A DNA stretch of 64,000 nt from Streptomyces sp. NRRL B-24484. GTDB taxonomy: Bacteria > Actinomycetota > Actinomycetes > Streptomycetales > Streptomycetaceae. Both the position numbers and the translations under genes were made by a program. Shown one piece after another: positions 31,282 through 36,741 of this stretch. Each line of letters begins with the position of its first letter. The stretch's first letter is position 1. The stretch covers positions 35,662-99,661 of the forward strand of contig NZ_JOAI01000030.1 in NCBI RefSeq assembly GCF_000717715.1, written 5' to 3'. The notes beneath the pieces were generated by a model that was not told the origin of the DNA, did not search any database, and worked only from the letters and a program-made list of their open reading frames with translations.

Positions 31282-31327
31282 TGTCAACCAGGGTTGACAG
31301 GAGCCCCGGTGTCAACCTAAGTTGACA
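31282..31327 (+). promoter_or_regulatory. Twin palindromic operators overlapping a promoter
   Basis: Two 18-bp palindromes start 28 bp apart: TGTCAACC-AG-GGTTGACA (31282-31299) and TGTCAAC-CTAA-GTTGACA (31310-31327). The first contains a perfect -35 TTGACA (31294-31299). The second contains TAAGTT (31318-31323, fitting TANNNT) 18 bp downstream. A start 7 bases after that -10 would be the A of the HTH gene's ATG at 31330. Occupancy of either site would block RNA polymerase. Confidence 0.85.
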
Positions 31328-31329
31328 AC

Positions 31330-31563
31330 ATGAGCGAGACGAGACAGCTCGCCGCGGACGCGAGCAGCCGCGACCCCGCGATCGGCCTCCGGGCCGTCCG
31401 GGCTCTGCGGGACCTGGCCGACCGGCTGGAGGACCTCCAGGTCGGCAACGCGCGCGAGCAGGGCTGGTCCTGGCAGGAGATCGCCGCCTGCCTCGGGGTC
31501 AGCCGACAGGCGGTGCACAAGAAGTACGCCAAGCGGATCTTCGGTTCGAGAGGGGAGGGCTGA
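31330..31563 (+). CDS. Small helix-turn-helix protein, Clp N-domain partner
   Basis: 77-residue protein: a helical dimerisation-like N-terminus (LRAVRALRDLADRLEDLQVG) followed by a helix-turn-helix, WSWQEIAACLGVSRQAVHKKY, and a short basic tail. The reading helix SRQAVHKKYAKR suits DNA contact. It has no ribosome binding site and likely starts as a leaderless message. Two bases separate its stop from the next GTG, so the pair is translationally coupled. It is the obvious candidate to bind the twin palindromes. Confidence 0.85.
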   Translation: MSETRQLAADASSRDPAIGLRAVRALRDLADRLEDLQVGNAREQGWSWQEIAACLGVSRQAVHKKYAKRIFGSRGEG

Positions 31564-31565
31564 CC

Positions 31566-32102
31566 GTGTTCGAGCGGTTCACGGACGGCGCGCGCCGCGT
31601 CGTCATGCAGGCCCAGGTCGAGGCGCGCGAACTCGGCCACGAGAAGGTCGGCACCGAGCACCTGCTGCTCGGCATCCTGCACGACCCGGCCGACCCGGTG
31701 GCCGCACTGCTGGCCGCCGACGGCCTCGACCACGAGTCCGCCCGGGCCGAGGTCGTCCGGCTCTCCGGCGGCCAGGTCGACGGCCGGGCGCTGGCCGCGA
31801 TCGGCGTCGACCTCGACGCCGTCCGGGCGGCCGTGGAGTCCGCGTTCGGCGAGGGCGCCCTGGAGCGCCGGCCCGCCGACGGACGCCGGGCCGGGAAGCA
31901 CAGCCGGCTCACCCCGCGCGCCCGCAAGACCCTGGAGCTCTCGCTGCGTGAGACCCTCCGCCTCAAGCAGAAGGAGATCGCCACCGGCCACCTCCTGCTC
32001 GGCCTGGTCCGCGAGGGCCAGGGCCTGGGCGCGGCGGTGCTGTCCGGCCACGGCGTGGACTTCGCCAAGCTACGCCGGGACGTGGAGGCGGTCCTCGGTT
32101 GA
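31566..32102 (+). CDS. Clp N-domain-only protein (ClpC2-like)
   Basis: 178-residue protein made of two Clp_N repeats (about 1-66 and 112-178) with no AAA+ ATPase. Its start MFERFTDGARR matches the N-terminus of the ClpC1 unfoldase, and the second repeat has LTPRARKTLELSLRE and HLLLGLVREGQGLG. The linker between repeats is about 30 residues longer than in ClpC1. It could act as a decoy or adaptor for ClpC1 N-domain ligands. Compared with ClpC1 as I recall it, F2, R10 and E89 equivalents are kept (F2, R10, E124), F80 is Leu115 and K85 is Arg120. GTG start after AGGGGAGG. Confidence 0.87.
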   Translation: MFERFTDGARRVVMQAQVEARELGHEKVGTEHLLLGILHDPADPVAALLAADGLDHESARAEVVRLSGGQVDGRALAAIGVDLDAVRAAVESAFGEGALERRPADGRRAGKHSRLTPRARKTLELSLRETLRLKQKEIATGHLLLGLVREGQGLGAAVLSGHGVDFAKLRRDVEAVLG

Positions 32103-32251: not shown

Positions 32252-32279
32252 TTGAGTCGAAAACCTGAATGGATATGAT
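32252..32279 (+). promoter_or_regulatory. Conservon promoter
   Basis: TTGAGT (32252-32257), 16-bp spacer, TATGAT (32274-32279). It lies in a locally AT-richer stretch and would start transcription near 32286, 18 bases before the first ATG of the kinase-like gene. Confidence 0.6.
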
Positions 32280-32303: not shown

Positions 32304-34118
32304 ATGAGCGGAACGCGCCCGGCCGTACGCCGCGCCGGCCCGCCCGGCGTGCCCGCCGCCGGTCCCGCGGTCGCCCTGCTCCGCCGCCGACGCCGCACGA
32401 GGATCAGACAGATGAGAGCTCGCACGCGCCCCGCCCGGGCGGCGTACCAGGGATCCGACGGCGCACTCGCGGTCCGCGCCGGGGCCGGGATCGTCCTCGG
32501 CGCCGCGGCCGCGGCCACCGCCGTCGCCCTCACCCCCTCCGTCCACCGCGCCGCCGTCGCAGGCGTCGCCGCCGTCGCCGCCGTGCTCTGGTGCGGCCTC
32601 GTCGGCTGGACGGCCAAGCTCGGACTCCGCGCCCGCGCCGCCGAGCGCACCCTCGCCGACGTCCGGCGCGAACTCGCCGAGACCGGCGCCGCCGCCGGCG
32701 CGCTGCACACCGAACTCACCGCCGCCCACACCGCGGCCGGCGCCCTGCGCGCCGCCCTCGCCAACGCCCAGGCGGAGACCGCCGAGATCCGCACCGACCT
32801 GGAGCAGGCCCGCGCCGACGAGCACGCCCTGCGCGCCGAACTCGCCGCGCTCCACGAGGCGCACAGCGCCGCCGTCCGGGAACGCACCGAACTGGCCGCC
32901 CTCCGCGACCAGGTGCTGCCCCGGGTGGTCGAGAAGCTGCGCGCGGGCGCCTCGGTCGACACCGCCCTCACCGGCCACGACCTGCCTGTCCACCACGCAC
33001 TGCTGCGCACCGTCGCCGAGGCCGTCGGCCGCGGCGAACGCCAGCGCGCCGCCGCCCTCGCCGTCTGCGCCACCGCCGCCGGCCGCGTCCAGGCACTGGC
33101 CACGAGCATGCACGCCGAACTGCGCGACATGCAGCACCGGCACGGCGAGGACGTCCTCGGCGACCTGCTCGTCCTCGACCACTCCACCGCCCAGGTCGGC
33201 CGGATGGCCGACTCCATCGCGGTGCTCACCGGCGCCCGCTCCGGCCGCCGCTGGACGAAGCCGATCGGCGTCGAGTCGATCCTGCGCGGCGCCCTCGGCC
33301 GGATCGGCGCCTACCAGCGCGTCCGGCTGCACAACGCCTCCACCGCCGCGGTGGCCGGCTTCGCCGCCGAGGGCGTGATGCACGTCCTCGCCGAACTCCT
33401 CGACAACGCCGCCAACTTCTCCGCCCCGCCGGCCGAGGTGCACGTCTACGTCGAGGAGGCCCACTCCGGCCTCGTCGTCACCGTCGAGGACGGCGGACTC
33501 GGCCTCAGCGACAGCTGGCTGCGCCGCGCCGAACAGGCCGTCTCCGCCCAGCCGCTGGACCTCAGCGCGCTCTCCGCCGGCACCCGGCTCGGCCTCGCCG
33601 TGGTCGGCTCGCTCGCCCGCAAGCACGGCCTGTCGATCTCCTTCCGGCCGTCCGCGCGCGGCGGCACCGGCGTCGTGGTGCTGATCCCCGAGCAGCTGAT
33701 CAGCCACCCCGCACCCGCCCTCGCCCGGGCCCTGGACGCCGAGCGCCGCGCCGCGGCCGCCGCACCGGTCGCGGTCGCACCGGCGCCCGGCGCACCGCGC
33801 CCGGCCCGGCCCGTCCTGGAGCCCGCCCGGCCGGCCGCCCCCGCGGACCCCGCCGACGGCCCCGGCACCACCGCGGGCCCGGACAACACGGACAGCGACG
33901 CCGGCAACGAGGCCGGCGCCGACACCCCGCCCGCCGCCCGGACCCTGCCGCAGCGCCGCCGCGGGCAGACCCTGGCGGCGGCCGCGCCGGCGGGCCAGCC
34001 CGCTCCGCCGCCGCGGACCGAACGCTCCGCCGCCCTCTCCGCGGCCCGCTTCGGCGCGTTCCGCAAGGCCCTGCAAGGGGCCGAGTCCCCCGACGCCCAC
34101 GCGAAGGACGATGCCTGA
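32304..34118 (+). CDS. cvnA: Conservon component A: sensor histidine kinase-like protein
   Basis: 604-residue membrane protein. Two hydrophobic helices (about 52-72 and 80-101) precede a long Ala/Glu-rich coiled coil (about 110-205). An HATPase_c domain follows with the N-box-like LAELLDNAANFS and G1-like EDGGLGLSD, then a disordered Pro/Ala tail. A canonical phosphoacceptor H-box is not evident, which is usual for CvnA. Conservon proteins form a membrane complex resembling eukaryotic G-protein receptors. Start uncertain: ATG 32304 has no ribosome binding site, while ATG 32412 (residue 37) follows GAGGAT. Overlaps cvnB by ATGA. Confidence 0.88.
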   Translation: MSGTRPAVRRAGPPGVPAAGPAVALLRRRRRTRIRQMRARTRPARAAYQGSDGALAVRAGAGIVLGAAAAATAVALTPSVHRAAVAGVAAVAAVLWCGLVGWTAKLGLRARAAERTLADVRRELAETGAAAGALHTELTAAHTAAGALRAALANAQAETAEIRTDLEQARADEHALRAELAALHEAHSAAVRERTELAALRDQVLPRVVEKLRAGASVDTALTGHDLPVHHALLRTVAEAVGRGERQRAAALAVCATAAGRVQALATSMHAELRDMQHRHGEDVLGDLLVLDHSTAQVGRMADSIAVLTGARSGRRWTKPIGVESILRGALGRIGAYQRVRLHNASTAAVAGFAAEGVMHVLAELLDNAANFSAPPAEVHVYVEEAHSGLVVTVEDGGLGLSDSWLRRAEQAVSAQPLDLSALSAGTRLGLAVVGSLARKHGLSISFRPSARGGTGVVVLIPEQLISHPAPALARALDAERRAAAAAPVAVAPAPGAPRPARPVLEPARPAAPADPADGPGTTAGPDNTDSDAGNEAGADTPPAARTLPQRRRGQTLAAAAPAGQPAPPPRTERSAALSAARFGAFRKALQGAESPDAHAKDDA

Positions 34119-34531
34119 TGAGCAGCAGCACCGACCGCGACCTCGACTGGCTGCTGGAGAACCTGCTGACGGCCACCCCCGGTGCCCGGCACGCCCTGGT
34201 GCTCTCCGCCGACGGACTGAAGCTCTGCCACACCGCCGCCCTCGGCACCGACCAGGCCGACCAGCTCGCCGCGATCGCCTCCGGCATGCAGAGCCTGGCC
34301 CACGGCGCCTCCATCGAGTTCGGCGACGCCGCGGGCGGCGTCCGCCAGTCGATGACCGAGTTCCACGGCGGCATCCTGTGCATCGTCGCCGCCGGTGAGG
34401 GCGCCCACCTCGCGGTCGTCACCGACGACGACGCCGACGTCGGCGTGGTCGGGCACAACATGCACGGGCTGATCGAGCAGATCGGGGTGTTCCTGAGCGC
34501 CCCGGCGCGCGAGATCGAGGCAGGGGTGTGA
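34118..34531 (+). CDS. cvnB: Conservon component B: roadblock/LC7 protein
   Basis: 137-residue roadblock/LC7 domain protein (LDWLLENLLTATPGARHALVLSADGLKL, given by its leading strand and helix; IASGMQSLAHGASIEFG; GILCIVAAGEGAHLAVV). Such proteins act as modulators of the CvnD GTPase. Its start overlaps cvnA and its stop overlaps cvnC, so the order A-B-C-D is tightly coupled. Confidence 0.93.
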   Translation: MSSSTDRDLDWLLENLLTATPGARHALVLSADGLKLCHTAALGTDQADQLAAIASGMQSLAHGASIEFGDAAGGVRQSMTEFHGGILCIVAAGEGAHLAVVTDDDADVGVVGHNMHGLIEQIGVFLSAPAREIEAGV

Positions 34532-34890
34532 CGCGGCCGCTCGCCGGCCGGGACGAGGACCCGGACCGGCTCTACACCGTGACCCGCGGCCGCAGCCGGC
34601 CGCCCGAGCACGCCTTCGACCTGGTCACCCTGGTCGTCACCGAGCAGGAGCCGGTGCCCGGCATGCAGTCCGAGCACGCCCGCATCCTGACCCTGTGCGC
34701 CACCCCGACGGCCGTGGTCGAGCTCGCCGCCGAACTCGCCCTGCCGGTCAGCGTGGTGAAGATCCTGCTGGGCGACCTGCTGGAGGCCGGCCGGATCACC
34801 GCCCGCCACCCCAGGTTCGCCCCGTCCAAGGCACGCCTGCCCGACCTCGACACGCTGAAGCAGGTGCTGCATGGTCTCCAACAGCTCTGA
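34528..34890 (+). CDS. cvnC: Conservon component C: DUF742 protein
   Basis: 120-residue DUF742 protein with a winged-helix-like core: DRLYTVTRGRSRPPEHAFDL, then HARILTLCATPTAVVELAAE and ISVVKILLGDLLEAGRI-like segment (here LPVSVVKILLGDLLEAG). Its role in the complex is undefined. GTG start overlaps the cvnB stop; its 3' end overlaps cvnD by 20 bases. Confidence 0.92.
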   Translation: MTRPLAGRDEDPDRLYTVTRGRSRPPEHAFDLVTLVVTEQEPVPGMQSEHARILTLCATPTAVVELAAELALPVSVVKILLGDLLEAGRITARHPRFAPSKARLPDLDTLKQVLHGLQQL

Positions 34891-35497
34891 CACCCTCGCC
34901 CCGGCCGGCAGGGCACCGCTCAGCAGCACCGCCGCGAACGGCCTGAAGATCGTCGTGGTGGGCGGCTTCGGCGTCGGCAAGACCACCCTGGTCGGCTCGG
35001 TGAGCGAGATCCGCCCGCTCAACACCGAGGAGACGATGACCCGCGCCGGCGAGGGCGTGGACGACCTCACCGGGGTGCAGGGCAAGCGGTCGACCACCGT
35101 CGCCTTCGACTTCGGCCGGATCACCCTCGGCGCCGAGAACGTCCTCTACCTCTTCGGCGCCCCCGGCCAGGAGCGCTTCTGGTTCCTCTGGGACCGGCTG
35201 TTCACCGGCGCCCTCGGCGCCGTGGTGCTGGTCGACACCCGCCGGCTGGAGGAGTCCTGGTACGCCATCGACCGGCTGGAGCACCACGGCACGCCCTTCG
35301 TGGTCGTCCGCAACAACTTCGGGGCGCCCGAGCACACCCTCGCCGAGGTGAGGGCCGCCCTCGACCTCGCCGAGCACGTCCCGCTGGTGGAGTGCGACGC
35401 ACGGGACCGCGAGTCGAGCAAGCAGGTGCTGATCGAGCTTGTCCGCCACCTGCACCGCATGGCCGAGGCCGAGGCCTCCGGAGAGGACACCCCGTGA
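34871..35497 (+). CDS. cvnD: Conservon component D: Ras-like GTPase
   Basis: 208-residue small GTPase. P-loop VVVGGFGVGKTTLVGSVSE (about 31-49), switch region with TTVAFDFGRITL, the G3-like FGAPGQERFWFLW, and an atypical G4 position (VVRNNFG rather than NKxD). It is expected to cycle at the membrane with CvnA-C and signal to downstream partners, probably the P450s that follow. Its stop overlaps the GTG of the first P450 (GTGA). Confidence 0.93.
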   Translation: MVSNSSDTLAPAGRAPLSSTAANGLKIVVVGGFGVGKTTLVGSVSEIRPLNTEETMTRAGEGVDDLTGVQGKRSTTVAFDFGRITLGAENVLYLFGAPGQERFWFLWDRLFTGALGAVVLVDTRRLEESWYAIDRLEHHGTPFVVVRNNFGAPEHTLAEVRAALDLAEHVPLVECDARDRESSKQVLIELVRHLHRMAEAEASGEDTP

Positions 35498-36741
35498 CCG
35501 AGCCCGTCACCACCCCGCCGCCCGGCTGCCCGGCCCACGCGGACGCCGCGCCGCTGTACGGGCCGCGGTTCCAGACCGACCCCGGCGCGCTCTACCAGGA
35601 GCTGCGCGACCGCCACGGCCCGGTCGCACCCGTCGAACTCGCCGGCGGCGTCCCCGCCTGGCTGGTCATCGGCTACCGCGAACTCCAGCTCGTCACCGGC
35701 CAGCCCAAGGTCTTCGGCCGGGACTCCACCCGCTGGAACCAGTGGCCGAACATCCCCGAGGACTGGCCGCTCAAGCCGATGATGGCGCCCGTCCCCTCGA
35801 TCCTCTACGCCGAGGGCGCCGAGCACCAGCGCCGCTCCTCCGCCGTCACCGACGCCCTCGCCGCCGTCGACCCGTACGAACTGCGGGTCCACTGCGAGGA
35901 GATCGCCGACCGGCTGATCGACGGCTTCGCCGGGCGCGGCGAGGCCGACCTGGTCGCCGACTACGCCCACCGGCTGCCGCTGCTGGTGCTCTGCCGGCTC
36001 TTCGGCCTCGACGAGGACGAGGCCCCGGTGCTGATCCGCGGCCTGCTCGCGATGCTCGACGGCGGCGCGGACGCCCAGGAGGGCGCCCAGCAGCTGCTCA
36101 CCGTCATGCTCGGACTCGTCCACCGGCGCCGCGAGATCCCCGCCGCCGACGCCACCTCGCGGCTGCTCGCCCACGAGGCCGGGCTGAACGACGAGGAGGT
36201 CATGCGCGACCTGCGGGTGCTGCTGATCGCTGGCCACCAGCCGCTCGCCTACTGGATCTCCAACGCGCTGCGGCTGATGCTCACCGACGAGCGGTTCGCC
36301 GCCTCCCTCTCCGGCGGCCGCCGCTCGATCGGCCAGGCCCTCGGCGAGGCCCTCTGGGAGGACACGCCGACCCAGATCTTCGCCGGCCGCTGGGCGACCC
36401 GCGACGTCCACCTCGGCGGCCAGCGGATCGCCAAGGGCGACATGGTGCTGCTCGGCTTCGCCGGCGCCAACGCCGACCCGACGGTCCGCCAGGACTCCGG
36501 CCGCCCCGCCGAGGGCAACCGCGCCTACCTGAGCTTCTCCGCCGGCGACCACGGCTGCCCCTACCCGGCCCGCGAGGCCGCCGAGGTGATCGCCAACACC
36601 GCGATCGAGGTGCTGCTCGACCGGCTGCCGGACCTGCGCCTCGCGGTCTCCGAGAGCGCCCTGGTCTGGCGCCCCTCGGCGTGGGTGCGCGGACTGATGG
36701 CACTGCCGGTGGCCTTCACCCCCGGCTACGTGGCGGAGTGA
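35494..36741 (+). CDS. Cytochrome P450 lacking ExxR (CYP157-like)
   Basis: 415-residue P450-fold protein. The I helix reads LLIAGHQPLAYWIS. The heme-binding loop FSAGDHGCPYPARE has the cysteine ligand C355. The K-helix ExxR motif, almost universal in P450s, is absent: E285-A-L-W288 stands in its place. This matches the known CYP157 family, which occurs in streptomycete conservons beside a CYP154 and lacks ExxR. No ferredoxin gene is adjacent. Function is unknown. Coupled to cvnD by GTGA overlap. Confidence 0.88.
   Translation: MTEPVTTPPPGCPAHADAAPLYGPRFQTDPGALYQELRDRHGPVAPVELAGGVPAWLVIGYRELQLVTGQPKVFGRDSTRWNQWPNIPEDWPLKPMMAPVPSILYAEGAEHQRRSSAVTDALAAVDPYELRVHCEEIADRLIDGFAGRGEADLVADYAHRLPLLVLCRLFGLDEDEAPVLIRGLLAMLDGGADAQEGAQQLLTVMLGLVHRRREIPAADATSRLLAHEAGLNDEEVMRDLRVLLIAGHQPLAYWISNALRLMLTDERFAASLSGGRRSIGQALGEALWEDTPTQIFAGRWATRDVHLGGQRIAKGDMVLLGFAGANADPTVRQDSGRPAEGNRAYLSFSAGDHGCPYPAREAAEVIANTAIEVLLDRLPDLRLAVSESALVWRPSAWVRGLMALPVAFTPGYVAE

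Follow-up and report, generated by a model that had tools for sequence, protein, structure and literature searches.

Between positions 31,282 and 32,102 of a 64,000-nucleotide stretch of the Streptomyces sp. NRRL B-24484 genome (contig NZ_JOAI01000030.1; the whole stretch is called the window below), a gene for a small helix-turn-helix (HTH) protein is followed by a gene for a protein with a Clp_N domain. We consider this locus, with a probability of about 0.6, to be a two-protein counterpart of ClpC2, in which the HTH protein would act as an autorepressor and the Clp_N protein as a sensor and decoy. Mycobacterial ClpC2 is a single protein that consists of an HTH-like N domain and Clp_N; it is a repressor of its own gene, whose promoter is leaderless, and acts via CGTCAAC-n5-GTTGACG sites, which are twin in many species; cyclomarin relieves this autorepression, and ClpC2 acts as a sponge for the drug (PMC10030653). 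By comparison or prediction, the counterpart reading is supported by the kinship between the HTH protein and the ClpC2 N domain, by conserved operators over the promoter and an operator spacing set by the architecture, and also by an association between HTH residue 64 and the operator, a ClpC-like fold and a mostly kept binding pocket.

The HTH/Clp_N locus and its operators

The coordinates of the locus are given in Table 1. An earlier reading of the window from its letters alone (the sequence-only reading) had described two 18-bp palindromes, one holding the -35 element and the other the -10 element, spaced so that transcription would start at the A of the HTH gene ATG, and the sequence confirmed all of this. 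The gap from TTGACA to TAAGTT is 18 nt, and the HTH mRNA is expected to be leaderless. A consensus promoter scan of the window did not list this promoter and its -10 element is weak, so the promoter call rests on position and conservation. Twin GTCAAC/GTTGAC palindromes across a leaderless promoter are a trait of ClpC2, present here as judged by sequence only. When up to two mismatches to the palindrome were allowed, the window contained 2 matches, compared with a mean of 0.06 in shuffled sequences, and 2 matches were reached in 0 of 100 shuffles. In the 8.86-Mb genome, probably that of a Kitasatospora to judge by its nearest named relatives, the two operators are the sole places with 0-1 mismatch, and three more places have exactly 2 mismatches; thus, the switch seems to serve this locus only. 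Elsewhere in the genome, three further GTCAAC/GTTGAC inverted pairs were noticed (G000:C6:88714, C18:153997 and C18:156239), with spacers of 5, 3 and 2.

The HTH protein was modelled with helices at residues 2-11, 16-43, 48-55 and 59-72 (predicted local distance difference test score, pLDDT, 90.5). A profile of the split HTH proteins aligned with the fused ClpC2 N domain at a probability of 96.8 and E 2.5e-10 (hhalign), and the published ClpC2 dimer bridge D46-R57 falls on HTH residues 31 and 42: of 68 rows, 67 have an acidic residue at the former and 67 have Arg at the latter. By these two lines, the N-terminal HTH-like dimer domain of ClpC2 has its match here as a separate protein. In a homologue search, 7973 of 8000 scored candidates reached E 1e-3 or better, and many of the 120 homologues listed bear the name RNA polymerase subunit sigma-70. 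This name and weak Sigma70_r4 (region 4) matches under the cut-off would speak for a small sigma-like or activating factor, but we regard such a role as most improbable: a protein of 77 amino acids with no match to region 2 does not qualify as a sigma-70 factor, palindromes over both the -35 and the -10 fit a repressor, and the fused relative is a repressor.

The Clp_N half of the putative ClpC2 counterpart starts with a GTG 2 nt past the HTH stop codon, and a Pfam scan of its 178-residue product gave no AAA+ match, in agreement with the coupled Clp_N-only gene described by the sequence-only reading. A Clp_N domain without AAA+ modules is likewise a trait of ClpC2. The predicted fold is the plain ClpC N-domain fold, to which the split form adds a hairpin of 23-38 residues between the two Clp_N repeats. 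Our alignment agreed that pocket residues F2, R10 and E89 are kept and that F80 and K85 are replaced by L80 and R85. The altered specificity that had been deduced from these replacements is weakly founded: among 130 split Clp_N proteins, F2 is present in 120, F80 in 119, E89 in 107 and K85 in 100, and L80 occurs in 7. Split Clp_N proteins from Williamsia (L256-L258, L267, L272, L275 and L276) are 257-282 amino acids long and carry a C-terminal extension.

Table 1. Positions in the window of the HTH/Clp_N locus and of the genes downstream
Feature	Position	Strand	Remarks
Operator O1	31282-31299		TGTCAAC-N4-GTTGACA, TGTCAACCAGGGTTGACA; exact palindrome, by sequence
Operator O2	31310-31327		TGTCAAC-N4-GTTGACA, TGTCAACCTAAGTTGACA; exact palindrome, 28 bp from O1
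-35 element TTGACA	31294-31299	+	within O1
-10 element TAAGTT (TANNNT)	31318-31323	+	within O2; 6 nt ahead of ATG 31330
HTH protein, 77 amino acids	31330-31563	+	proposed dimeric autorepressor; Pfam HTH_23 above cut-off; stop TGA 31561-31563
Recognition helix	31504-31545	+	model residues 59-72; residue 64 = Lys (AAG, 31519-31521)
Clp_N-only protein, 178 amino acids	31566-32102	+	GTG start; proposed sensor and decoy; Pfam Clp_N E 6.4e-25
Extra helical hairpin between the two Clp_N repeats	31770-31850	+	~residues 69-95; not in ClpC nor in the genome's fused ClpC2
HATPase sensor	32304-34118		conservon-like operon
Roadblock/LC7 protein	34118-34531		conservon-like operon
DUF742 protein	34528-34890		conservon-like operon
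GTPase-like protein	34871-35497		conservon-like operon

Recurrence, operator spacing and the recognition helix

We searched 70 genomes of the genus, all of which contained some HTH relative at E 1e-3, and read the loci of the 52 with a close relative (E below 1e-30; L011-L062). Two perfect palindromes lie upstream of the HTH gene in 49 of these loci and one in 3, the spacer is 4 bp in all 52, and a Clp_N match lies downstream in 51; the Clp_N frame stops early in L025 and L053 and is shortened in L018, apparently by the contig end. The HTH protein was matched in 151 of 200 genomes at the family level (E 1e-12) and in 205 of 394 at the class level (E 1e-5), a count that may include fused relatives. 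Named genomes, including Streptomyces, Actinomadura, Streptosporangium, Cellulomonas, Arthrobacter, Nocardia and Mycobacterium, yielded at least 80 loci, 78 of them with an adjoining Clp_N, and the mycobacterial sites often read GTCAAG-N4-CTTGAC. Clp_N is present in 161 of all 164 loci read (genomes met twice are included in the 164; unique loci are counted where so stated), and the intergenic gap is -1 to +4 nt in 132 of 140 unique pairs. As in the window, the HTH and Clp_N parts of these relatives are separate polypeptides. The expected recurrence of the gene order and upstream palindromes in other actinobacteria was thus borne out, as the twin sites and the leaderless spacing are also seen well outside the genus, and by sequence the window locus is a split relative of ClpC2 found across Actinomycetes. 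A further split pair (L273), closely similar to mycobacterial pairs, is on a contig labelled as an Acidobacteria metagenome-assembled genome, which is likely a binning error.

A fused ClpC2 of 249 amino acids is encoded in the same genome as well, under twin N5 operators of its own that lie 28 bp apart. The fused protein found a match at E 1e-20 in 70 of 70 genomes of the genus, in some via ClpC alone, and at E 1e-30 in 107 of 394 genomes of the class. We then compared the operators of the two architectures, scoring sites with at most 2 mismatches and spacers of 2 to 8. In the 143 unique stretches ahead of split genes, the spacer was 4 in 278 of 282 site matches; in the 94 unique ones ahead of fused genes, which include four divergent paralogues, it was 5 in 181 of 187. 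The window locus, with 4 bp, therefore departs from the 5-bp spacer of ClpC2. The promoter of the genome's fused gene reads TTGACA, 17 nt, TANNNT, 6 nt, ATG and, apart from the 18-nt gap, the split promoter is alike, suggesting that the change affected the operator and spared the promoter. Most simply, the distance between the DNA-reading heads would differ from one dimer to the other, and this would separate the two circuits within one cell.

Residue 64 of the recognition helix was associated with the base at the inner end of the half-site. With K64 this base is C in 426 half-sites, T in 51, A in 1 and G in 0; with Q64 it is C in 33, G in 52 and T in 23. Counted by locus (152 unique loci), an inner G is found in 0 of 123 with K64 and in 25 of 29 with Q64. 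Q also occupies this position in three divergent fused paralogues (L171-L173), each of which, by eye, has one or more half-sites with an inner G. The distant split copies L063 and L064, read by eye and both with 4-bp spacers, are in agreement: an inner G accompanies E64 in L063, and an inner C accompanies R64 in L064. Together, the spacing rule and the residue-64 association point to the HTH protein as the DNA reader. The six distant HTH copies that we read in the genus (L063-L068) all lack the GTCAAC/GTTGAC palindrome; by eye, L063, L064 and L066 have a 4-bp spacer with altered half-sites (GTCAGG/GTCAAG, GTCAGC/GTCAAC and AGCAAC/GTCAAC, respectively), suggesting that a genome may contain several circuits insulated from one another. 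In another divergent fused paralogue, L170, the twin sites read GACAAC-N5-GTTGTC and helix position 63 is Arg, which may reflect a second contact rule.

Proposed mechanism and alternatives

The drug-responsive decoy that the sequence-only reading proposed is already published for mycobacterial ClpC2 (PMC10030653), and extending its ligand-relieved mechanism to the split pair is a good inference; repression, HTH-Clp_N contact, a ligand and the decoy role are what we infer for the pair. An HTH dimer would occupy both palindromes and cover the -35 and -10 elements of the leaderless promoter that drives its gene, so that the operon would stay almost silent. Clp_N, whose gene is translationally coupled, would present the surface with which ClpC binds substrates and drugs, but no motor, and would be both sensor and effector: a ClpC-directed peptide or surplus ClpC clients would fill it, HTH repression would be relieved, and excess Clp_N would then soak up the ligand, so that the ClpC-ClpP protease would be spared.

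The HTH protein might instead autoregulate alone, with Clp_N as a mere output (a holdase or a competitor at ClpC) and with induction through loss of the HTH protein, for example by ClpC-ClpP degradation or heat instability, rather than through a ligand on Clp_N. All of the DNA-side evidence concerns the HTH protein, separate polypeptides require no contact, and fused clpC2 is also heat-induced ~twofold (PMC10030653). On the other hand, the pair is tightly coupled and in fused ClpC2 the ligand works through Clp_N (PMC10030653); we hold this alternative to be rather unlikely, though worth keeping in mind.

Several points weigh against the two-protein counterpart of ClpC2 as we propose it. A Clp_N match is absent for 4 of the 6 distant HTH copies mentioned above, the window Clp_N has L80 whereas F80 matters for cyclomarin in ClpC1, and ecumicin and ilamycin bind ClpC2 without induction, so binding need not mean induction (PMC12913811). 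The residue-64 association amounts to about 4 changes on the Clp_N tree, and among 3 independent pairs, 2 agree, 0 oppose and 1 is uninformative (p 0.5). In the open-access literature, we found no experiment on any split member. Furthermore, the published assignment places the DNA contact of ClpC2 in Clp_N, at R185 and R189, rather than in the HTH (PMC10030653). By the offset implied by the residues in that paper, these would be ClpC positions 93 and 97; Arg is present at 93 in 126 of 130 split Clp_N proteins and at 97 in just 43, and the genome's own ClpC has R93 and Q97. The solved ClpC2 N-domain fragment (residues 4-72) stops at residue 72 (PMC10030653), and the last HTH helix aligns to ~74-87 of ClpC2 in the profile alignment, just beyond it. 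Derepression was 4.6-fold with R57A in the N domain versus 2.0-fold with R185A/R189A (PMC10030653). Because the measured R185A/R189A effect stands, Clp_N may add to DNA binding in the fused form.

We lean slightly towards a broader proposal, in which an actinobacterial cell would run parallel ClpC-guarding circuits built on one HTH family and insulated by half-site spacing, 4 bp for a free HTH protein and 5 bp for one fused to Clp_N, and by recognition-helix residues; the split sensor would act in trans on its repressor, and the HTH helix, not mainly the Clp_N arginines, would read the operator.

Known systems, surroundings and meaning

The locus shares with ClpC2 (PMC10030653; PDB 8ADA, 8AD9, 8B9O) the HTH-like family, a Clp_N without AAA+ and a near-identical half-site, as well as, by sequence, twin sites on a leaderless promoter in a self-contained circuit. 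ClpC2 is one polypeptide with a 5-bp spacer and no hairpin, whereas here there are two genes, a 4-bp spacer and an extra hairpin, and the locus is therefore not ClpC2 by membership. Most likely, to judge by analogy, it would work like ClpC2 with sensor and reader on two chains. The Clp_N protein resembles the ClpC N-terminal domain (3WDC, 8IBO and others) in fold and most pocket residues and differs from ClpC by the absent AAA+ motor and the extra hairpin. By published accounts, Mycobacterium smegmatis ClpC3 (MSMEG_3761), which is likewise a small Clp protein, binds cyclomarin and ecumicin and competes with ClpC1 (PMC10864484, PMC10454040); compared by description only, it is at most a possible split Clp_N, and it is reported to be monocistronic (PMC5660060).

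The HTH region of RelI, which is the antitoxin to RelS, is akin to that of ClpC2 (PMC13284704), and RelI is the top PDB sequence match of the window HTH protein, at an insignificant E 0.063. This relationship, together with autoregulation and an operon layout typical of such pairs, would fit a toxin-antitoxin-like pair in which the HTH protein is the antitoxin and free Clp_N inhibits growth by titrating ClpC clients or adaptors. We find this improbable, as the Clp_N fold is that of a plain ClpC N domain and no known toxin fold, and clpC2 deletion or derepression leaves M. smegmatis growth unharmed (PMC10030653). RelS-RelI also differs from the locus in its RelE-like RNase partner and in having the toxin gene first, and no inverted repeats are reported ahead of it (PMC13284704).

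Downstream of the HTH/Clp_N pair lies a conservon-like operon (32304-36741), ahead of which the consensus scan gave a promoter-like match at 32252-32279. The protein after its GTPase-like gene is P450-like by eye and had no Pfam match at 1e-3.

In the open-access literature, to which our search was confined, we saw neither the split pair nor the spacing rule nor the helix-operator association described. Our analysis gives a widespread gene pair, the first of which frequently carries a sigma-70 subunit name, a place next to ClpC2 and a testable role. As the DNA reader and the proposed drug sensor are separate proteins, the question of ClpC2 derepression becomes approachable with two purified parts, and residue 64 together with the spacing rule predicts which operator pairs with which protein. 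If the proposal is true, antibiotic-producing actinobacteria would possess inducible guards for ClpC, at which cyclomarin, rufomycin, ecumicin and lassomycin are directed.
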